Of a stretch of 64,000 bases of DNA, positions 5,544 to 64,000 are shown one piece after another (within the stretch, counting starts at the first letter, position 1; every line of letters begins with the position of its first letter). The notes under the pieces are model-generated. The model did no database searches, was not told where the DNA came from, and worked only from the letters and a program-made list of their open reading frames with translations. The stretch is taken from contig NZ_AUBG01000014.1 in the NCBI RefSeq assembly GCF_000429125.1, positions 62,001 through 126,000 of the forward strand, read 5' to 3'. The stretch comes from Aequorivita capsosiphonis DSM 23843. GTDB lineage: Bacteria; Bacteroidota; Bacteroidia; Flavobacteriales; Flavobacteriaceae. The translations under genes and the position numbers were made by a program.

Positions 5544-5578
5544 TGTTCAGTGTTCAGTGTTCAGTGTTTAGTGTTTAG
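5544..5578 (+). repeat. Tandem heptamer TGTTCAG/TGTTTAG, five units
   Basis: Three perfect TGTTCAG units followed by two TGTTTAG units begin six bases after a stop codon. A degenerate version (cagtg, ttcag words) recurs at 6767-6800 after the next gene. Confidence 0.8.
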
Positions 5579-5707: not shown

Positions 5708-6766
5708 ATGATCAACCTTTTCTCCACCCATATTGCATCTCTTTCCATTCACCGAGTGGGTAATAAAAGCCGCAACGAGGCTATTTTTCTTTCAGGAGCG
5801 CCATATAAAATGGACGATGAAATAACACCATTGTTAAAGGAGTTCTTTCTAAAACCGTTTCGCGAGAAGGAGGAAAACTATTTTAAATTTACCCATGAAG
5901 CAGATCTGGAATTTCACGAGCTCAATAACATTGCAACGAGGGTTTTTAACAATCCGGAGAACATTCATGAAGAAAGCAGGAAAATCGCTACCTATTTATA
6001 TAACCAGTCCGAACATCCACATATTAAAAGCGGAGAGGTATATATTGCATACCTAGAAAATGTTCAGTTGGACAATGTGAAAATGGATGCTCTCGGCATT
6101 TTTAAAAGTGAAGTAAAGCAAGATTTCCTTCAATTTTCGGAAGAAGGCAATCAATTGGATGCTATGTTACAACACGGGGTGAGCCTTAATAAACTTGACA
6201 AGGGTTGTCTTATTTTTAATACGGAAAAAGAAGAAGGCTATAAAATTCTTTCTGTTGACAGCAACCGTTATGACACACGCTATTGGCTGGAAAGTTTTCT
6301 TGGCGTAGATGCATTAGCAGATGATAATTTCCGCACTAAAAAGTATTTAAAATTTTGTCAAGATTTCGCAAAAGATGTAGTGCTACCTGCTGAAGATAAA
6401 AAGCAGGAGGTCATGTTTATGAATCGCGCCGTAAATCATTTTGCCAAGAATGACACTTTTGAGGAGACTGCATTTATGAATGATGTGATAGACAATCCAG
6501 ATTTATTACCAGAATTTCGGCACTACAAAACCGAAAAAGCACCTAAATATAGCATTGAGGATTTAACCACTTTCCCTATTGCAAACACAGCGGTTACAGC
6601 GGCCCGGAAGAAAATAAAGAATGTAATCAATTTAGATACAAACATTCAAATAAAACTGGATTTCATTAATCCTGAAAGCGCCGAAAAGTTTGTTGAAAAA
6701 GGTTGGGATGAGGAAAAGCAGATGTATTATTACCTAGTTTATTTCAACAAAGAACAGAAAAGTTAG
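5708..6766 (+). CDS. Nucleoid-associated protein, NdpA/YejK family
   Basis: 352 residues. The N-terminal part (SLSIHRVGNKSRNE, then FKFTHEADLEFHELNNIA) and SGEVYIAYLENVQLDNVKMD, IFKSEVK and LNKLDKGCLIFN match the NdpA family (PF04245). E. coli YejK is a low-abundance nucleoid protein reported to interact with topoisomerases; a similar role here is inferred from family only. No signal peptide or membrane segment. ATG 5708 gives the usual family N-terminus. The lipoprotein gene starts 49 bases downstream and may be cotranscribed. Confidence 0.85.
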   Translation: MINLFSTHIASLSIHRVGNKSRNEAIFLSGAPYKMDDEITPLLKEFFLKPFREKEENYFKFTHEADLEFHELNNIATRVFNNPENIHEESRKIATYLYNQSEHPHIKSGEVYIAYLENVQLDNVKMDALGIFKSEVKQDFLQFSEEGNQLDAMLQHGVSLNKLDKGCLIFNTEKEEGYKILSVDSNRYDTRYWLESFLGVDALADDNFRTKKYLKFCQDFAKDVVLPAEDKKQEVMFMNRAVNHFAKNDTFEETAFMNDVIDNPDLLPEFRHYKTEKAPKYSIEDLTTFPIANTAVTAARKKIKNVINLDTNIQIKLDFINPESAEKFVEKGWDEEKQMYYYLVYFNKEQKS

Positions 6767-6814
6767 TATTCAGTGATCAGTTCACAGTGTTCAGAAAACA
6801 GTAATTTGTTTATT

Positions 6815-52544: not shown

Positions 52545-53126
52545 TTAAGGATTTATGGAGATTTCCTTTCTAATTCGGCTTAAGGAAGTATCGGTAACAC
52601 CCAGATAAGAAGCTATATATTTTAAAGGAACTTGCTTAATAATCTCAGGCTGATCTTTTATGAGATCTAAATATCTTTCTGTAGCGCTTTGGGTGAGCAT
52701 ATTTACCGCGCGTTGTTTGGAAATAAACAATTGGTTGGACATCCACGTTCTTCCCCATTCCGTAAAACCGGCAATGCTGCTGAACAACTTTTGAAAATCA
52801 GAAAATTCTATTTTCCATGCAGTGCCGTTTGTCAGGGCTTGTAAATTTTCTTTGGAAGGTATTCTTAGGAATAGTGAAGGAACTTCAATCAATATTTCGT
52901 TGGGGCCAAAAAATGCTGTAGTTATTTCATTGCCCTTAAAATCGATTACAAAGGAACGAAGCAATCCAGTTTCAATTAAATAATACGAATTACTGATTTT
53001 TCCTTCATTCAATATAAGTTCATTCTTTGAAAACTCAATCTTTGTATGCGAAGCGATCAGCTCTTTATAATCTTCTTTGTTAAGAGAAGGATGCGCGTAT
53101 ATTTTTTCAAAAAAGAGATGATCCAT
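52545..53126 (-). CDS. Crp/Fnr family transcription regulator
   Basis: 193 residues: cyclic-nucleotide-binding-like beta-barrel (about 20-125, with LILNEGKISNSYYLIETGLL) and a C-terminal helix-turn-helix (VPLKYIASYLGVTDTSLSRI, then RKEI). The cAMP-contact motif is not conserved and no Fe-S Cys is seen, so it may be ligand-independent or sense something else. It is the only regulator in this stretch of small genes and may control them; that is inference. Confidence 0.9.
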   Translation of the reverse strand: MDHLFFEKIYAHPSLNKEDYKELIASHTKIEFSKNELILNEGKISNSYYLIETGLLRSFVIDFKGNEITTAFFGPNEILIEVPSLFLRIPSKENLQALTNGTAWKIEFSDFQKLFSSIAGFTEWGRTWMSNQLFISKQRAVNMLTQSATERYLDLIKDQPEIIKQVPLKYIASYLGVTDTSLSRIRKEISINP

Positions 53127-53317: not shown

Positions 53318-53716
53318 TTATAATGCTTCTGAGCCTGCAGTTGCAACGGCGTGATCATTTTCTACAACGCTTCCACTTACGCCAACAGCACCAATTATGT
53401 CGCCATTCTTGTTCTTTATCAACACACCTCCGGGAAAGGAGATTAACCCACCGTTGGAATGTTCAATATTATATAGCGATTCGCCAGGTTGCGAGAGTTT
53501 TCCTATTTCTCCAGAAGGCATATCGAAGAATCTAGCAGTTTTCGCTTTCTTTAGTGCGATATCTGCAGAACCCAGCCACGCGCCATCCATACGAACGAAG
53601 GCCACTTGATTTGCTCCACCATCTACTACACAGATGTTCATTTTAGTGTCTATTTCTTTTGCTTTTTTCTTGGCTGCGGCAATTACTTTTTCCGCTTGTT
53701 CTAATGTGATATTCAT
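53318..53716 (-). CDS. GlcG/HbpS-family heme-binding protein
   Basis: 132 residues, single GlcG/HbpS domain (DUF336): [19 protein letters not shown] helix, [20 protein letters not shown] and [20 protein letters not shown]-like core. HbpS binds heme and senses oxidative stress; others have unknown cofactors. No signal peptide is present, so it is cytoplasmic. Preceded upstream by an AT-rich simple repeat. Confidence 0.88.
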
Positions 53717-57166: not shown

Positions 57167-57472
57167 TTAAAATCCATAAATCTCACACATCAAACCCAGA
57201 TTGAAAAAAGCGGAAATCGCTCCCATAACGAGCATGGCACTGACAAACAAGGTAGCAAAAATCACAATTTTTCTATTTGAATGATAATTGACGTAATTCA
57301 AAATTACTTGAAAAACCAAGGCTAAAGATTGAGCCACCAACATTCTTTTCGCGCAAACTATAACGGGTTCTTTAAAATATAGAAAGTATGTAGCCAGCAT
57401 TAAGATTATATACAATGCAGTTATTCCAAACAACACAGTTTTTGGAAATTTAAATCTTTGAGAGTTTATCAT
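57167..57472 (-). CDS. Small membrane protein, unknown function
   Basis: 101 residues with three predicted transmembrane segments (about 14-32, 44-62 and 69-90) joined by short basic loops. I recognise no family. Single gene, no clear operon partner; good start MINSQRFKFPKT and ordinary codon use support a real gene. Confidence 0.6.
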   Translation of the reverse strand: MINSQRFKFPKTVLFGITALYIILMLATYFLYFKEPVIVCAKRMLVAQSLALVFQVILNYVNYHSNRKIVIFATLFVSAMLVMGAISAFFNLGLMCEIYGF

Positions 57473-57595: not shown

Positions 57596-57706
57596 CTTAA
57601 CTTGGTTAATTAGCGAAGGGCGTTAGTTTACCTCCGACACTCTTAATTTTGGAAAACATAAGCTTTTATTTCGAAAAGCCCGATTTTCGCAAATCTTGGT
57701 TCCTAC

Positions 57707-57802
57707 TTAATTCCATATTGGAGAACCAGATTGGCCATTCACTTCAACCTTCATCACATATACCCCTAATGCTGGTGATGAAAAGTTGAAGGATGGACTT
57801 TA
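57707..57802 (-). pseudogene. C-terminal sorting-domain remnant of a T9SS protein
   Basis: On the minus strand the frame reads SPSFNFSSPALGVYVMKVEV, then NGQSG and a stop. It is the same T9SS tail as in the intact gene at 62857 (SPSINVSSLAPGVYVMKVKV). The homology ends at about 57801, and upstream there is immediately a stop and then a promoter of this gene group. The rest of the gene appears deleted; the usual terminal KIIKK is also gone. Confidence 0.85.
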
Positions 57803-57839
57803 TATATTTTTAAAGAAATAACATTTTTAAATTTAACAA

Positions 57840-57909
57840 CAAACATAGAAGTAAGAAAACTAACCTGAAACCTCTACTTAGAATTTGGATAGTTTGGATT
57901 AGTATTCGG
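57840..57909 (-). promoter_or_regulatory. Shared direct-repeat promoter, orphan copy
   Basis: -7 box TATGTTTG (57847-57840), GTTT 20 bp upstream in the -33 place, and two 11-bp direct repeats at 57878-57888 and 57899-57909 (plus strand ttagaatttgg and ttagtattcgg) exactly 21 bp apart. The gap from -7 box to repeat is 30 bp, as in the other copies. It is orphaned: it leads into a sorting-domain fragment. Confidence 0.8.
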
Positions 57910-57950
57910 TAAAAATGATGATCTCTTCTTTATATTTAAGTTTATAAATT

Positions 57951-57989
57951 TAAAACAAAGAGAAGAGCCACAGTTACGTAGCTCTTCTC
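57951..57989 (-). terminator. Terminator of the first surface lipoprotein gene
   Basis: gagaagagc and gctcttctc enclose cacagttacgta; on the minus strand a T-rich tail follows. The stem-loop closely resembles that at 62800-62827. Confidence 0.82.
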
Positions 57990-58046
57990 CATACCAATCA
58001 AACAATCGCTTTTCCATTTTTTAATGAATTTATAAAAGAAAAAGTT

Positions 58047-59240
58047 TTAACCTCTTTCAAATAACTCTGTACAAGGCGTATTAATAAATGTAAGGTTTGA
58101 TGATGAATAATTTGGGTTTTCTGATTGTCCCACTCGTAAATAACCATATACACCACAAGAAGCTAAATCTTTAAACTCGGTATCATGGATATTAAGCTTT
58201 GTATTAGTCCAAAGAATGACTGCCCCCTTATTGTTTTCAGGGTCTTGACCGGCATCACTTATTTTGGCAAAACCTATTTCGTTCATTGGGTTGATTGTGC
58301 CAAGACCGATACCTAACCATGATCCTGGACCAGATTGTACACCACGGACTACAATAGGCAAATCTGGAGTTCCCACCATTTTAAAACCTCCTTCATTTAT
58401 ATCGAAACGAGTTCCAGGCTCCATCTCAATAATAGTTCCTGGTTCAATAGTAAGGCTGCCGAGCCTCGATACACCTACATTTCCTGTAACTCGGAAGGGT
58501 ACATTTATATTTTGCCAAACAACATTTTCCTCTATTGCGGAAGGGTTTGAAATTATTTGAACTCTATCTAGTTCATTTCCACTAAAATCATTGGTAGCGG
58601 AAGCCTTATGTGCGAGTTGAAGACTAATATTTAAAGGCTGAATGTTTTCCGTAAATGTGTTATTTTCCAAAGTTACGTCTGAATCTCTATATCTGGCGTC
58701 AAAAGCTGATTTCTCACTATGTTTAATAGTACTGTTTTTCATTATAAGACCTGCTCCAGAATATACAACAACACTCGTTGGACCATCGCCGTTAACAATT
58801 TGGCTTCCGCCATAGCTTATGTCTACATGTTCCATAATATTAGTGTTACTACCACTATGGACTACAATTCCTTTCCACCAACCAGGGCTTAACTCTGTTC
58901 CGGTCATAACAATGGGCTTATCAGGTGTACCCACCGCATGAATTGAAGATTGTGGTTTAAAATTAAGACCTGCATGTTCAGTAAAATGTACAACAACGCC
59001 AGGTTCAATTGTCAGTTTCTTTTCAACAGAGGCATAGCAGCTTATAATATAATCTACTGGTGCATCTGGATTATCAACAAGCAATACATCTTCCCCAAAG
59101 ATATCACAACTAAGCTCTATTGGTGGGGCTAGGCCTGATGGATCATCTCCAGGGCCATCATCGTCACTGGAGCAGGAAACTACTAGTAGTGAAATTGTAA
59201 AAGTTGCTAAAAACAACAGCTTATTGAATTGATTTTTCAT
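58047..59240 (-). CDS. Surface lipoprotein, predicted parallel beta-helix, paralog A
   Basis: 397 residues from ATG 59240, matching paralog B. An ATG at 59300 is in frame but lies in the -7 box, so it cannot be used. Lipoprotein signal to Cys23, then SSDDDGPGDDP, an acidic surface-export signal. The body has two similar halves, each of the form LTIEPG, VGTPDxPIV, SPGWWKGI/GPGSWLGI, then NxM and I-S-x-x-G, suggesting a right-handed beta-helix. Four Cys outside the lipobox are shared with paralog B (ELSC, IISC, LASC, NTPC). Function unknown; could bind glycan or matrix. Confidence 0.78.
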   Translation of the reverse strand: MKNQFNKLLFLATFTISLLVVSCSSDDDGPGDDPSGLAPPIELSCDIFGEDVLLVDNPDAPVDYIISCYASVEKKLTIEPGVVVHFTEHAGLNFKPQSSIHAVGTPDKPIVMTGTELSPGWWKGIVVHSGSNTNIMEHVDISYGGSQIVNGDGPTSVVVYSGAGLIMKNSTIKHSEKSAFDARYRDSDVTLENNTFTENIQPLNISLQLAHKASATNDFSGNELDRVQIISNPSAIEENVVWQNINVPFRVTGNVGVSRLGSLTIEPGTIIEMEPGTRFDINEGGFKMVGTPDLPIVVRGVQSGPGSWLGIGLGTINPMNEIGFAKISDAGQDPENNKGAVILWTNTKLNIHDTEFKDLASCGVYGYLRVGQSENPNYSSSNLTFINTPCTELFERG

Positions 59241-59297
59241 AATACGTTTCATAAATTTAAATTTTAGGTTTGATTTGAATTTGTAGGATTCTGCTGA

Positions 59298-59366
59298 CAA
59301 AGATACTTAGAGCAAGATTTTTTAAAACCTATAATTAGTATTTGGTAGGTTTCACTTAGAATTCAG
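59298..59366 (-). promoter_or_regulatory. Shared direct-repeat promoter of lipoprotein A
   Basis: -7 box TATCTTTG (59305-59298), AGGTTT in the -33 place 19 bp upstream, then direct repeats at 59335-59345 and 59356-59366 (ttagtatttgg, ttagaattcag) with a 21-bp period. The -7 to repeat gap is 29 bp. Confidence 0.8.
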
Positions 59367-59410
59367 TCGAAAACCGTAAATAAAATGCCTTTTACTTTGT
59401 TAAACATTTT

Positions 59411-59442
59411 AAAAAAGAAAAGAGCCTTATACGGGCTCTTTT
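59411..59442 (-). terminator. Terminator of lipoprotein B gene
   Basis: aaaagagcc and ggctctttt pair around a seven-base loop; the minus strand continues in T's. Confidence 0.82.
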
Positions 59443-59495
59443 CTCTGGTAATAAAACAATTGTTCTTTATTTTTGATAATCTATAAGTCTTAGTC

Positions 59496-60674
59496 TTACT
59501 CGAATGCTTCATTACAAGGCGTATTTATGAATGTGAGGTTTGATGATGTATAATTTGGATTAGATGATTGCGAATGGAGCAATTTACCATATACACCACA
59601 AGAAGCTAAGTCTTTAAATTCCGTATCATGGATGTTAAGTTGTGCACTATAATAGAGAAAAACTGCCCCCTTATTGGTGTCCGGATTTTCTCCGGCGCCA
59701 CTTATTTTTGCATAAGCAATCTCGTTCATACCATTGGTACCTGAGATAGAAATATCCTTCCAAAATCCGGGGCCAGGATTTTCCCCTCGGATTATTATGG
59801 GTAATGCTTCGGTACCTACAATCTTTAAGCCTCCGCTCTCAACGTTAATATTACTTCCAGTAGCCATCTCTATTTCTACTCCTGGTTCTATTGTAACTGA
59901 ACCTCCAGTGACAACACGTAAAGTTCCCTGAATGAGGTAAGGAACATTGATGTTCTGCCAGACATGATTTTCACCCACGGCTCCGTCACTTATTGTAACT
60001 TTATCTATTTCATTACCTGTAAAATCATTGGATGCAGATATTTTATCGGCATTCTTACATGTCATTGTCATTGGCGCTACATTTTCAGTAAAGGTATTAT
60101 TCTCTAAACTTACTTTTGAACCGCTCACCGCCGTATAGGCAGTTCCCTCACTATGACGAATGCTAGAGTTATTCATGATAAGTGCACCTCTATTATATAC
60201 TATTATACTGGACTCACCAATCCCATTATAAGTTTGACCGCCACTATAGCTGATATCAACATATTCCATAATACCGGTATTGTTAGTAGTTATGAAATTT
60301 AAGCCGCTCCACCATCCAGGACTAGATTCTGTTCCTCTCATAATTATTCGTTCATCAGCCGTACCCATAGCATGGATAGAAGAGGTTCCATGGAAAGAAA
60401 GTCCAACATCGGGGCCGAATTCAATAACCACTCCGGGCTCGATAGTCAGTTTGCCCTTTACTTGGCCATTACAGTTTATAATATAGTCTACTGGTGCGTC
60501 TGGGTTGTTCACGAGGGTTAAATCGTCCGCGAAAAGTGAGCAATCTAGCTCGATTGGTGGCGCGTCACCTACTGGATCCCCCCCAGGTCCATCATCGTCA
60601 CTGGAGCAGGAAACCACTAGTAGTGACATTGTACATATTGTTAACAGTAACATTTTCTTTAATTGATTTTTCAT
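59496..60674 (-). CDS. Surface lipoprotein, predicted parallel beta-helix, paralog B
   Basis: 392 residues, same layout as paralog A: MKNQ start, lipobox Cys23, SSDDDGPGGDP export signal, two similar halves with LTIEPGVVIEFG and VTIEPGVEIEMA, and the four shared Cys (ELDC, IINC, LASC, NTPC). The last 40 residues are nearly the same as in A. Divergence is greatest in the loops of the second half, where ligand contact would be expected if it binds anything. Confidence 0.78.
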   Translation of the reverse strand: MKNQLKKMLLLTICTMSLLVVSCSSDDDGPGGDPVGDAPPIELDCSLFADDLTLVNNPDAPVDYIINCNGQVKGKLTIEPGVVIEFGPDVGLSFHGTSSIHAMGTADERIIMRGTESSPGWWSGLNFITTNNTGIMEYVDISYSGGQTYNGIGESSIIVYNRGALIMNNSSIRHSEGTAYTAVSGSKVSLENNTFTENVAPMTMTCKNADKISASNDFTGNEIDKVTISDGAVGENHVWQNINVPYLIQGTLRVVTGGSVTIEPGVEIEMATGSNINVESGGLKIVGTEALPIIIRGENPGPGFWKDISISGTNGMNEIAYAKISGAGENPDTNKGAVFLYYSAQLNIHDTEFKDLASCGVYGKLLHSQSSNPNYTSSNLTFINTPCNEAFE

Positions 60675-60729
60675 AATATTTTTTTTGTGAATTAAATTAA
60701 GTTTGTTCGAATTTGTAAGATTCTAGAGA

Positions 60730-60799
60730 CAAACATACCTATCACAATAAAGCTTTTAAACCCCCAGTTAGAATTTGGTGTATATCAATTAGTATTTGG
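60730..60799 (-). promoter_or_regulatory. Shared direct-repeat promoter of lipoprotein B
   Basis: -7 box TATGTTTG (60737-60730), GGTTT 20 bp upstream, and direct repeats at 60768-60778 and 60789-60799 (ttagaatttgg, ttagtatttgg), period 21 bp, gap 30 bp. The leader to ATG 60674 is about 50 nt. Confidence 0.8.
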
Positions 60800-60902
60800 T
60801 ATAAAAGTTAATTAACTAGTATTAATTTTTTGGATAAAAATGCTTTTATAATGAATTGGGCACAGGTCAGTAAGCCCTTTCTTAATTAAACAAACACTAT
60901 TT

Positions 60903-62573
60903 TTATTCTTTTATAATTTTATAAGCACCTATTTGACCATCTATTTCGACTTTCATTGTATAAATTCCGGTAGCGAGTGCAGAAATAGTGATAGACTGAC
61001 TTTTCTGCTGTGGAGAAAATTGCATGACTTCTTGTCCCAATTGAGAAAAAATTGCAACTTTTTGAATGCGGCTTTTTGCTAAAATATTTAAAACATCTTC
61101 AGTTGGGTTGGGAAATACGGTAACACTGTCTGTATTATTTTCTTCTACATTCACCGTTTCCGTCATAGCATCAAAATAAACATTTTCCGCATACTCCCCA
61201 TTGATTTTGTCTCCTGCAAATACCATGCAAGGCTGATGATCTGAAGTTTCAGCAATAATAGATCGAGCGCCGCTATAAACATTGATACCACTATCTGAAA
61301 CCCTATGAGCCCAATCAAACCCGTCATCGCCATTATAGGTTCGGGAATAATTTCTATTGTTTTCAAAATTATATATATTAACAAATGATGTTCGTATGAT
61401 ATCTACGTCATCTTCTCTTCGCACCCAGCTATTAACGTATATGTAGTGACCATCATTAGATGGAGTAATCGCACCTATTGTAGTGTAATCATCGCTGTTT
61501 TTTCTCACAAATGATCTATAAATAAACTTCTCACTATAGGATGGTTTAGAAGATATCCCAATTAAAACATGATCATCGGCTGGGGCTTTTCTCGCAGCCC
61601 GAATGGTTGGACTCCACAGTTGGGCATTTGTCCCAGACCACACATTTTCATTTGTTTCCCAAGATCCTGGATCGTTATAATTTGGGTTAGCAGTGGCATA
61701 TAAATCTCCTGAAGCACTATCTACAAATGTAGTATAGCATCCACCATCTCTTCCGTATGCAAAAGCAACTCCTTCAATATTTGTTTGTATTTCGGTTTCA
61801 TCCACCCAATCCAATCCATAACTGCCTGCTGTACTTCGGGCGGAATACAACGTAGTTATATTATTTTGTTCTTTTATATAGGTCGCAAAAACGCTTTGGT
61901 TTGAAGTGATTTCTGGATAATTTCGATCCACACTAAAGTCGATCACATCGTCAGAGATTCCTTGCATTTCAAAATCATTCGTGGCCACTTTGATTTTCAT
62001 CGCAAAAAAGGAGTAATACGTATTCATATAGGCGAGTAAATAGTCATCCCCATTTCCATCAATAGAAATCGTCTCTATTTTCCATAATTCCGCATCAAAA
62101 ATAATAAAGCTTCTCCAAAGGTTAAAGGTGCCTCCGTTATTGGTACTGCGATATACAAGTAAATTTGCATCACCATTGGTATCATTTTCAATAACACTTA
62201 TATAGATTATACCTTCAATTGTTACACTCATATCAAATCCGTCAATGATACCTTCATGAACCATCTTGTCCGTATCCCAATATTCTGGAGATCTTGACTC
62301 TTCATAACTCCCCTCAACTACTGTCGGTGCTATTATTGGAGTAAGTGGACGGTACAGTGCTGCCATGCGTGGATCTACTTCCTGCCAGGCATATTTAATG
62401 GCAAGCCGATTGCTATTAATCTCGGCAGCGGTACCAGTGTTTTCCAATTGCTTGGCCTGTTCATAAAGAGCCTTGAGTTCTGGAGTCACCACTTGGTTTC
62501 CAGTGGAATTTATTTGTGACATCCCTTTAAGGATACAAAGTGTACACATTAGTAAAGTAATTACATTTTTCAT
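60903..62573 (-). CDS. T9SS-secreted repeat (predicted beta-propeller) protein C
   Basis: 556 residues. Signal peptide MKNVITLLMCTLCILKGMSQ, an acidic and helical N-terminal region to about 70, then a body of BNR-like strands (YRSTNNGGTFNLW, YSARSTAGSYGLDWVDETE, AYMNTYYSFFAMKIK, PSYSEKFIYRSFV) suggesting a beta-propeller, and a T9SS sorting domain from about 478 (VFPNPTEDVLNIL to YKIIKE). Close paralog of the protein at 62857. Substrate or partner unknown. Its leader is about 130 nt, longer than in the lipoprotein genes. Confidence 0.78.
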   Translation of the reverse strand: MKNVITLLMCTLCILKGMSQINSTGNQVVTPELKALYEQAKQLENTGTAAEINSNRLAIKYAWQEVDPRMAALYRPLTPIIAPTVVEGSYEESRSPEYWDTDKMVHEGIIDGFDMSVTIEGIIYISVIENDTNGDANLLVYRSTNNGGTFNLWRSFIIFDAELWKIETISIDGNGDDYLLAYMNTYYSFFAMKIKVATNDFEMQGISDDVIDFSVDRNYPEITSNQSVFATYIKEQNNITTLYSARSTAGSYGLDWVDETEIQTNIEGVAFAYGRDGGCYTTFVDSASGDLYATANPNYNDPGSWETNENVWSGTNAQLWSPTIRAARKAPADDHVLIGISSKPSYSEKFIYRSFVRKNSDDYTTIGAITPSNDGHYIYVNSWVRREDDVDIIRTSFVNIYNFENNRNYSRTYNGDDGFDWAHRVSDSGINVYSGARSIIAETSDHQPCMVFAGDKINGEYAENVYFDAMTETVNVEENNTDSVTVFPNPTEDVLNILAKSRIQKVAIFSQLGQEVMQFSPQQKSQSITISALATGIYTMKVEIDGQIGAYKIIKE

Positions 62574-62709
62574 GATTTTGTGTTTTTAAAATTAATTTTC
62601 GTTCGTTTAAATAATTGAGGAGTAATTAATAAGGAATTGAAAATAATCTTAATCGGTAACTAGACATTTTTTAAACTATATGTTATTTAGGCTTTATAAG
62701 CCTGCAAAA

Positions 62710-62779
62710 CAAACATATAAGAAAGAAACCTACTACGAAACATACAATTAGAATTCGGTTAGCATGAATTAGTATTCAG
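62710..62779 (-). promoter_or_regulatory. Shared direct-repeat promoter of T9SS protein C
   Basis: -7 box TATGTTTG (62717-62710), GTTT 20 bp upstream, and direct repeats at 62748-62758 and 62769-62779 (ttagaattcgg, ttagtattcag), period 21 bp, gap 30 bp. Confidence 0.8.
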
Positions 62780-62856: not shown

Positions 62857-64000
62857 CTATTTTTTAATGATTTTATAAGTTCCTAATTGACCATCTACTT
62901 TAACTTTCATCACATAAACACCCGGGGCAAGTGATGAAACATTGATGGATGGACTTTTTTGTTCTGGTGAAATCTGCATCACCTCCTGCCCAAGCAAGGA
63001 ATAGATAGAAATATTCTCAACTTTGTTTTCCGAAGCAATATTTAAAGTTTCTCTTACAGGGTTTGGATAAAAAGTAAAACCTTCCAATAGGTTCTCTTCT
63101 ATACCCACCAAATCGGTCTTTGCATCAAAGTATAGATTATACCCGTAAGAACCGGCGCTACTAGACCCTGCGAATGCCATACAAGGCAAACCGTCTCCTG
63201 TTTCAGCAATTGCTGCGGGAAAGCCTGCATAAACATCTTTGTCAGTATCTGCCACAGGTTCCAATGGGTCAAAGTCATTTCCATTGTATGTAAGTGACCT
63301 ATTGGCATTATTTTCAGAGCCATCAATATTTTCACGAATATAAGATGTACGAATGGTTTCAACACCACCTACTCTTCGTATCCAAGAATCAGGTTTAACT
63401 ATGTTCCAATCACCTCCGCCGCCAGCGGAATAAGAAGTAAACTCAGCAAAATTTCCACTATTTACACGTTTATAACCTTTTGCGTTATAATGACCTGTAG
63501 ATCCAGCATCTCTGCTGGATGTAAAAATAATAACATTATCTTCTGATGGAGTATTTCTAGCAGCCCGGATGGTTGGGTTGCGAACTTCAATATCCGTTCC
63601 ATAGGTCACATATTCGGCCAGGCTTCCCCATGAGCCGGGATCATTATAGTCAGTGTTTGGACGGGCATATAAATTTCCACTACCAAGCCCAAGATAAGTG
63701 GTGTAACACATACCCAGCCTACCGTAAGCAAAGGCAATTTGACCTAAGTTGGCTCCGGGAACTGGTGTTTCATCGACCCAGTCAAACCCATAGCTTCCTG
63801 ATGTGCTTCTCGCAGAATAAATTTTTGGAGAAGCGGACTCTTTTGTGTAAATAGCGTAAACTCGGGTTGCATTTGTGTTTCCGGGCCAATCACGGTCCAA
63901 GCTGAATTCGGTTACATCGTTGGCTATTCCCTCTGATTCAAAATCGCCAGTGGCCATATTAATTCGAATTCCAAAAAACGATGTATCGGTATTCATATAG
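62857..64000 (-). CDS. T9SS-secreted repeat protein D, 5' end off window
   Basis: At least 381 codons; the frame stays open through the window edge and the Met at 63996 aligns with an internal Met of protein C (LAYMNTYYSFF), so the true start is outside. Shared features with C include YSARSTSGSYGFDWVDETP, NDPGSW, PTIRAARNTPSEDNVII and the T9SS sorting domain (TFYPNPVRETLNI to YKIIKK). Gene D lies directly upstream of C on the same strand, head-to-tail, but the promoter and terminator in between suggest separate transcripts. Confidence 0.8.
   Translation of the reverse strand, partial: YMNTDTSFFGIRINMATGDFESEGIANDVTEFSLDRDWPGNTNATRVYAIYTKESASPKIYSARSTSGSYGFDWVDETPVPGANLGQIAFAYGRLGMCYTTYLGLGSGNLYARPNTDYNDPGSWGSLAEYVTYGTDIEVRNPTIRAARNTPSEDNVIIFTSSRDAGSTGHYNAKGYKRVNSGNFAEFTSYSAGGGGDWNIVKPDSWIRRVGGVETIRTSYIRENIDGSENNANRSLTYNGNDFDPLEPVADTDKDVYAGFPAAIAETGDGLPCMAFAGSSSAGSYGYNLYFDAKTDLVGIEENLLEGFTFYPNPVRETLNIASENKVENISIYSLLGQEVMQISPEQKSPSINVSSLAPGVYVMKVKVDGQLGTYKIIKK

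Follow-up and report, generated by a model that had tools for sequence, protein, structure and literature searches.

The genome of Aequorivita capsosiphonis DSM 23843 (4.04 Mb in 26 contigs) contains a recurrent promoter element in which two copies of an 11-bp sequence follow each other in the same orientation at a period of 21 bp, upstream of a promoter of the Bacteroidota type. Four copies of this element lie within a stretch of 64,000 nucleotides (nt), positions 62001-126000 of contig 11, which is referred to here as the window. We conclude, with a probability of about 0.9, that the repeats are operators of a response regulator with REC and LytTR domains, whose gene lies a short way beyond the window, next to that of its 7TMR-DISM/His_kinase sensor, and that they define an autoregulated regulon with the rigid geometry of an activator.

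Repeats and promoters in the window and the genome

In the promoter direction, on the minus strand, all four sites read CYRAATWCTAA-N10-CYRAATWCTAA, followed after 29 or 30 nt by TAnnTTTG, the -7 box. The initial annotation of the window had described four such promoters, and each of them is an exact match to the pattern TTAGWATTYRG-N10-TTAGWATTYRG (Table 1). The constant gap that it reported between repeat and -7 box measures 30, 29, 30 and 30 nt at sites 1 to 4, and the differing surroundings are evident from pairwise identities of 0.20-0.63 in the flanks (upstream 0.20-0.50, 10-bp spacer 0.30-0.60, stretch from repeat to -7 box 0.37-0.63, downstream 0.28-0.42) versus 0.73-1.00 in the half-sites. 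When up to three mismatches are allowed, six matches are found in the 64 kb compared to 0.05 expected (none of 100 shuffles reached six). The two additional matches, at 5547-5578 and 6763-6794, have the appearance of CAGTATT-type low-complexity runs, in agreement with the claim that the window holds no further copy of the promoter.

Arrays of 7-bp units (TCAGTAT, TTAGAGT) that imitate the motif are widespread in this genome, for example at G000:C11:41993-42143, C12:96273-96409 and C6:138103-138176 as well as at the two window positions just named. Together with TTGGAATTTGG-like runs, such heptamer arrays account for most of the 92 matches obtained in a search of the whole genome at three or fewer mismatches (11 for the reversed pattern). 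This search alone is too noisy, and the whole-genome counts given here use either a pattern with zero or one mismatch or a pattern linked to the -7 box. The genome holds 11 loci, of which eight are exact matches, two have one mismatch and one, on contig 15, is an array of four tandem half-sites at 21-bp steps with 2-3 mismatches per pair. Each site is located upstream of an open reading frame (ORF) except site 1, which precedes the remnant of a gene for a protein of the type IX secretion system (T9SS). The genome-wide search proposed in the initial annotation thus finds the sites 29-30 nt from the -7 boxes of genes for exported proteins, and the sites are conserved in relatives.

Could the promoters be alike solely because genes were duplicated together with their promoters? 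The genes below promoters 2 and 3 are paralogous (59% identity) and the T9SS tails are related, as duplication would have it. In pairwise comparisons of ten promoters of the genome, however, the two half-sites have a mean identity of 0.85 and 0.92, compared to 0.31 for the upstream stretch, 0.41 for the spacer, 0.39 from repeat to box and 0.33 for the downstream stretch, and the same site also precedes genes of other kinds, unrelated to these, on other contigs and in other genera. The initial annotation had named duplication without conservation in relatives as one outcome that would overturn its interpretation; with flanks that have diverged and sites that are conserved in relatives before non-homologous genes, we reject duplication alone and give it practically no chance of being correct.

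The fixed register is not confined to the window. Pooled sites with at most three mismatches (n = 121) consist of 26 sites of the sensor type (promoters of the sensor gene described below), 63 sites with TAnnTTTG within 50 nt and 32 sites with neither. The 63 boxed sites reduce to 44 non-redundant target promoters (less than 85% alike), which were selected for a box within 50 nt but not for its position. The box lies 30 nt from the repeat in 37 of these promoters, 29 nt in six and 13 nt in one, where the background density of TAnnTTTG is 0.0007 per position. In the 37 promoters with the 30-nt offset, a TTG/TTT element some 20 nt ahead of the box keeps two of its T in every case. Some targets carry three or four tandem half-sites at 21-bp steps (L115:6920-6983, L117:12131-12194, L035:9205-9278), and there it is the last half-site that lies 29-30 nt from a -7-like box.

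The sensor and LytTR regulator genes and their orthologs

Beyond the window end, at 0.9-3.7 kb, are the genes for the sensor and the regulator (window numbering 64868-67651; L031:10868-13651). The sensor has 673 amino acids (aa), with the domains 7TMR-DISMED2, 7TMR-DISM_7TM and His_kinase (PF06580; PF07695 and PF07696 also match), and ends 3 bp before the regulator. The regulator is a REC-LytTR protein of 252 aa in which both domains score above cut-off (Response_reg 74.1 bits; LytTR 69.3 bits, cut-off 22.6); its D55 is invariant across 12 aligned orthologs, and where PMC4227749 gives the LytTR signature FhRhHRS it has FLRVHQS (papers are cited here and below from the parts available to us).

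The last T9SS-tail gene of the window (62857 in Table 1) has its own repeat just outside the window (window numbering 64742-64773). A further exact repeat, the sixth site, belongs to the promoter of the sensor gene, 18 bp beyond this fifth one and in the opposite orientation, and the operators of the sensor and its divergent neighbour (L031:10742-10823) are thus arranged back to back. Such divergent operator pairs are 17-21 bp apart in 43 of 47 listed cases, some genomes being counted twice. The sensor ATG is found 7 nt past its TATTTTAG box (L031:10824-10868), and from this distance the sensor mRNA is probably almost leaderless.

The guess in the initial annotation that a LytTR-type regulator is involved is strengthened by this neighbourhood, where a REC-LytTR protein adjoins a LytS-type His_kinase (PF06580) with a membrane sensor and the pair has an exact repeat in its own promoter. 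The repeat layout is also that of LytTR sites: 11-nt repeats with a 10-nt spacer and a period of 21, upstream of the -33 TTG/TTT. LytTR proteins occupy such repeats with two subunits, two helical turns apart, a period that 11 nt plus a 10-nt spacer fits. LytTR repeats are described as 9 bp long and 10-13 bp apart in PMC11347149 and as 9-11 nt long with 11-13 nt between them in PMC4847170, so that the spacer is within the former range and one nucleotide short of the latter. The pair is not a LytTR regulatory system (LRS), in which the regulator comes first and a membrane inhibitor follows, though it is alike in its autoregulatory layout; here the kinase comes first and the response regulator follows.

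In the genus Aequorivita, an ortholog of the regulator (at least 73% identity) is present in 17 of 28 genomes, our own included, while other LytTR regulators do not exceed 43%. A site with at most one mismatch is found in all 17 genomes with the ortholog versus 2 of the 11 without it (Fisher 8e-6, with both of the latter counted); these two, G010 with one match and G013 with three, show CAGTATT/TAGTATT-like runs by eye. In total, the genus yields 60 pattern matches, several of which are simple repeats, versus 12 matches of the reversed pattern. A family sample of 199 genomes from 198 genera, with at most 13 candidates scored per genome, has the ortholog (E at most 1e-90) in three genomes, two with an exact site and the third with a one-mismatch site. 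An exact site occurs in 3 of the 196 genomes without the ortholog, namely in G094 and G119, which are low-complexity by eye, and in G224, and the reversed pattern is matched in two genomes (G046, G083).

A further comparison covered the best 80 of 326 loci in named relatives, consisting of 36 orthologs (69-84% identity) and 44 distant relatives (40-49%). The orthologs come from Aequorivita, Gelidibacter, Marixanthomonas, Winogradskyella, Confluentibacter, Oceanihabitans, Tamlana, Psychroflexus, Flagellimonas, Maribacter, Xanthomarina, Arenibacter and Bizionia, with several metagenome-assembled genomes (MAGs) in addition. The repeat stands before the sensor gene with at most three mismatches in 34 of the 36 and with four mismatches in one (L144); in Winogradskyella epiphytica (L129) it is degenerate, yet the TATTTTAG box is retained. 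With each genome counted once (17 of the genus and 22 others, from at least 13 genera), the repeat precedes the sensor gene in 38 of 39. In 31 of the 36 loci the box of the sensor promoter is at 29 nt (19 loci) or 30 nt (12 loci), in the form TAnnTTAG, TATATTGG or, once, TATTTTTG. The sensor ATG follows 41-46 nt past the repeat and 4-8 nt past the box in 24 of the 36 loci, so that a nearly leaderless sensor mRNA is predicted there as well; in nine of the 11 loci of the Flagellimonas/Maribacter/Xanthomarina type (L136-L146), the first ATG is 85-100 nt away.

Mode of action and competing interpretations

Related repeats are also associated with other LytTR systems. In seven genomes (G006, G011, G013, G014, G017, G024, G025), a second LytTR regulator of 35-36% identity has a -7-linked repeat with at most three mismatches about 2 kb away, upstream; the reversed -7-linked pattern gives 0-5 matches per genome. 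The operon that was read out, in G006, encodes a His_kinase with tetratricopeptide repeats (TPR) and a REC-LytTR protein, and its kinase gene is preceded by two copies of CAAATTCTAA at a distance of 21 bp. Five of these paralogs align to our regulator with 34% identity in REC and 42-45% in the LytTR domain. A comparison of LytTR domains for specificity residues did not discriminate these five from six distant relatives without the half-site (40-49%).

Several observations weigh against the assignment of the repeats to the LytTR regulator. At the 44 distant LytTR relatives, no comparable repeat is found in the 330 nt examined at each; their best matches reach 12-17 of 22 positions and beat shuffles at p of at most 0.05 in 4 of the 44, where the regulator's own start was used for the eight relatives at which no kinase ORF was found. 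The spacing count leaves out the 32 of 121 pooled sites that have no TAnnTTTG within 50 nt, among them ten sensor promoters with another box, twelve upstream-register copies of tandem arrays, about five near-miss boxes near +30 and five apparent chance matches. Relatives share ancestry and their genomes are not independent tests. G224, which has no ortholog, carries an exact site (L192:7600-7631) with a third half-site upstream and TAGGTTTA at +29, and another protein may read the same code there; a three-mismatch site at the very end of another LytTR regulator gene of G224 (29% identity) is only suggestive. Finally, the half-site is not closely like published LytTR boxes, with a loose resemblance, by eye, to the classical box. 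The initial annotation took the poor half-site match as a reason for doubt, but this doubt is weak because LytTR sites have a common layout and no common consensus (PMC4847170).

Alternatively, a different direct-repeat regulator, for example one of the AraC type, might read the sites, with the LytTR system being merely one of its targets. AraC-type subunits can also sit 21 bp apart, and the period fits their half-sites too. The genome has 24 HTH_18 matches, and the exact site of G224 is located just downstream of an ORF that looks AraC-type by eye. Yet contigs 11 and 15 carry none of the 24, on contigs 10 and 14 even the nearest are more than 50 kb away from the sites there, and no AraC-type helix-turn-helix gene linked to the regulon was found in this search of the genome, which addresses linkage only. 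Furthermore, the presence of sites tracks the LytTR ortholog in the genus and the family, the repeat is kept before the sensor gene in nearly all orthologous loci, and a related repeat accompanies the operon of a distant LytTR paralog. We consider a different direct-repeat regulator of this kind very improbable.

If the LytTR regulator reads the repeats, two of its subunits would bind the pair of 11-bp half-sites, which face the same side of the helix at a distance of two turns. Bound directly upstream of the -33 element, the regulator would recruit or position RNA polymerase, which would thereby be placed at the TAnnTTTG box at the fixed distance of 29-30 nt. The sensor, which has a 7TMR-DISMED2 outer domain, would control the regulator by phosphorylation, and the identical site upstream of the sensor gene would make the system autoregulatory. 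Activation by contact with RNA polymerase is inferred because the repeat keeps an unvarying register to the -7 box and is located ahead of the -33 element. Repression by the same bound protein, as by the LytTR protein CoxC, whose operator overlaps the -35 box (PMC11347149), is improbable in our view; unlike the CoxC site, the repeat described here is found ahead of the -33 element and keeps its register, most LytTR regulators bind upstream of -35 and activate (PMC11347149), and the -7 box of the sensor promoter is degenerate, as would be expected of a promoter that needs help.

More tentatively, and at somewhat less than even odds, the LytTR two-component systems of flavobacteria may share a code of CCRAATWCTAA-like half-sites, a 21-bp period and the rigid 29-30 nt register to the Bacteroidota -7 box, used by no fewer than two clades, perhaps three, whose sensors differ (7TMR-DISM, TPR). 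The operon of the regulator itself would differ in its degenerate -7 box, with TTAG or TTGG in place of TTTG, and in a sensor mRNA with almost no leader; the result would be a positive-feedback switch of low basal activity with two back-to-back operators 17-21 bp apart.

Putative target genes and comparison with known systems

The regulated targets would be exported or envelope proteins of diverse kinds. The 11 loci precede the T9SS remnant followed by a 101-aa ORF, two genes for beta-helix lipoprotein-like proteins, two T9SS-tail genes and the sensor-regulator pair. The remaining loci stand before genes for a protein that resembles lipocalins (Lipocalin_4), for an exported protein of 287 aa with a weak likeness to GLPGLI (E 2.8e-5 in NCBIfam, 24 bits against a cut-off of 50), for a small lipoprotein-like protein on contig 10, which has no Pfam match, for an OMP_b-brl_2 outer-membrane barrel on contig 14 and, on contig 15, for a protein with fn3, PPC and GEVED domains that has at least 1000 aa and is cut by the contig end, its C-terminal tail lying beyond. 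The terms lipoprotein-like and exported refer to N termini judged by reading. A structure model of the 287-aa protein, which is conserved, is too poor for use (mean predicted local distance difference test score, pLDDT, 51). Two of the 11 loci stand before intact T9SS-tail genes and one before the T9SS remnant, and the regulon is not one of T9SS genes as such. Targets in relatives, mostly identified by eye from sequence and some by family search, are of the same kinds (outer-membrane barrels, lipocalin-like, beta-helix and T9SS-tail proteins, the 283-287-aa protein), with DUF4412 proteins in Psychroflexus and one MAG in addition.

Table 1. Promoters with direct repeats and downstream genes in the window (window numbering)
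Feature	Position	Strand	Remarks
Promoter 1	57840..57909	-	exact repeat 57878-57909 (half-sites 57899-57909 and 57878-57888); -7 box TATGTTTG at 57840-57847, 30 nt from repeat
Promoter 2	59298..59366	-	exact repeat 59335-59366 (half-sites 59356-59366 and 59335-59345); -7 box TATCTTTG at 59298-59305, 29 nt from repeat
Promoter 3	60730..60799	-	exact repeat 60768-60799 (half-sites 60789-60799 and 60768-60778); -7 box TATGTTTG at 60730-60737, 30 nt from repeat
Promoter 4	62710..62779	-	exact repeat 62748-62779 (half-sites 62769-62779 and 62748-62758); -7 box TATGTTTG at 62710-62717, 30 nt from repeat
T9SS C-terminal tail remnant, below promoter 1	57730..57801	-	78% identity over 72 nt to tail of gene 62857; broken frame
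401-aa lipoprotein-like right-handed beta-helix protein, below promoter 2	58047..59252	-	start 82 nt below repeat; Beta_helix E 5.5e-5, 23.3 bits (just under cut-off 25.9)
Probable beta-helix protein, below promoter 3	59496..60674	-	paralog of 58047 gene (59% identity)
556-aa protein with T9SS sorting tail, below promoter 4	60903..62573	-	Por_Secre_tail PF18962 E 7e-12; TIGR04183 E 2.9e-12
Next T9SS-tail protein, part inside window	62857..63996	-	open past window end; Por_Secre_tail E 1.1e-13

The initial annotation envisaged a group of surface-protein genes behind all four window sites. This holds for promoters 2 to 4, which precede such genes, but site 1 precedes only a broken T9SS tail, 39-110 nt below its -7 box; the 101-aa ORF (57167-57472), which has no significant Pfam match, begins 405 nt below the site 1 repeat. 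The region 57680-57850 of the minus strand has the appearance of an operator that outlived its gene, a natural "orphan" promoter. For the protein below promoter 3, the Pfam search gave nothing significant (Beta_helix E 0.08). Its AlphaFold2 model (mean pLDDT 81) consists almost entirely of strands and gives weak matches to beta-helix-type enzymes in PDB, the best at E 1.9e-3 and with template modelling scores of at most 0.41 among the matches listed, none of which reaches E 0.001. Unrelated to the operators, a protein with a cyclic nucleotide (cNMP)-binding domain adjoins an HbpS-like haem-degrading protein at 52545-53126 and 53318-53716 on the minus strand.

Among known systems, AgrA of Staphylococcus aureus belongs to a quorum-sensing system. 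Its dimer binds two direct repeats upstream of promoters with over-long spacers, and its signature is the FhRhHRS to which FLRVHQS was compared above (PMC4227749), while its box and promoter type are different. YpdA/YpdB of E. coli is likewise a LytS/LytTR pair, whose regulator binds a direct repeat (GGCATTTCAT) as two molecules, one after the other, but has a different half-site and one target promoter, yhjX (PMC4847170). HdrRM/BrsRM of Streptococcus mutans resemble our system in having 9-bp repeats at a period of 21 (12-bp spacers) immediately ahead of -35 and in combining autoregulation with further target promoters, in their case of bacteriocins, but consist of a regulator and a membrane inhibitor without a kinase and use a half-site of the ACCNCTTAN kind (PMC6193735). 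The closest published layout that we found is that of the "LRS-like" operons of Bacteroides thetaiotaomicron and B. ovatus, for which Table 3 of PMC6193735 lists predicted repeats. These operons share with our system a LytTR protein, presumed autoregulation and a pair of 11-bp direct repeats, spaced by two helical turns (TCCGGTATTCA-11bp-ACCGGAAATCA), ahead of a promoter with TATCTTTG (TGTA-19 bp-TATCTTTG). There, however, the LytTR protein has transmembrane segments and an NfeD/DUF2154 membrane partner instead of a kinase/response-regulator pair, the period is 22 and the distance from repeat to box about 34 nt (11+4+19, summed) compared to 21 and 29-30 nt here, and the passages of PMC6193735 available to us present a sequence prediction at the operon itself, without a regulon.

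Our survey of the literature, which covered few subscription papers, found no LytTR two-component system of Bacteroidota for which an operator or a regulon had been defined; the predicted direct repeats at the two Bacteroides operons were all that turned up. The present analysis offers an operator that is precise enough to be searched for and that keeps a fixed register to the promoter. It also supplies the corresponding regulator and surface-protein targets across at least 13 genera. Through operator, regulator and targets, the specificity of LytTR proteins in Bacteroidota becomes directly testable.

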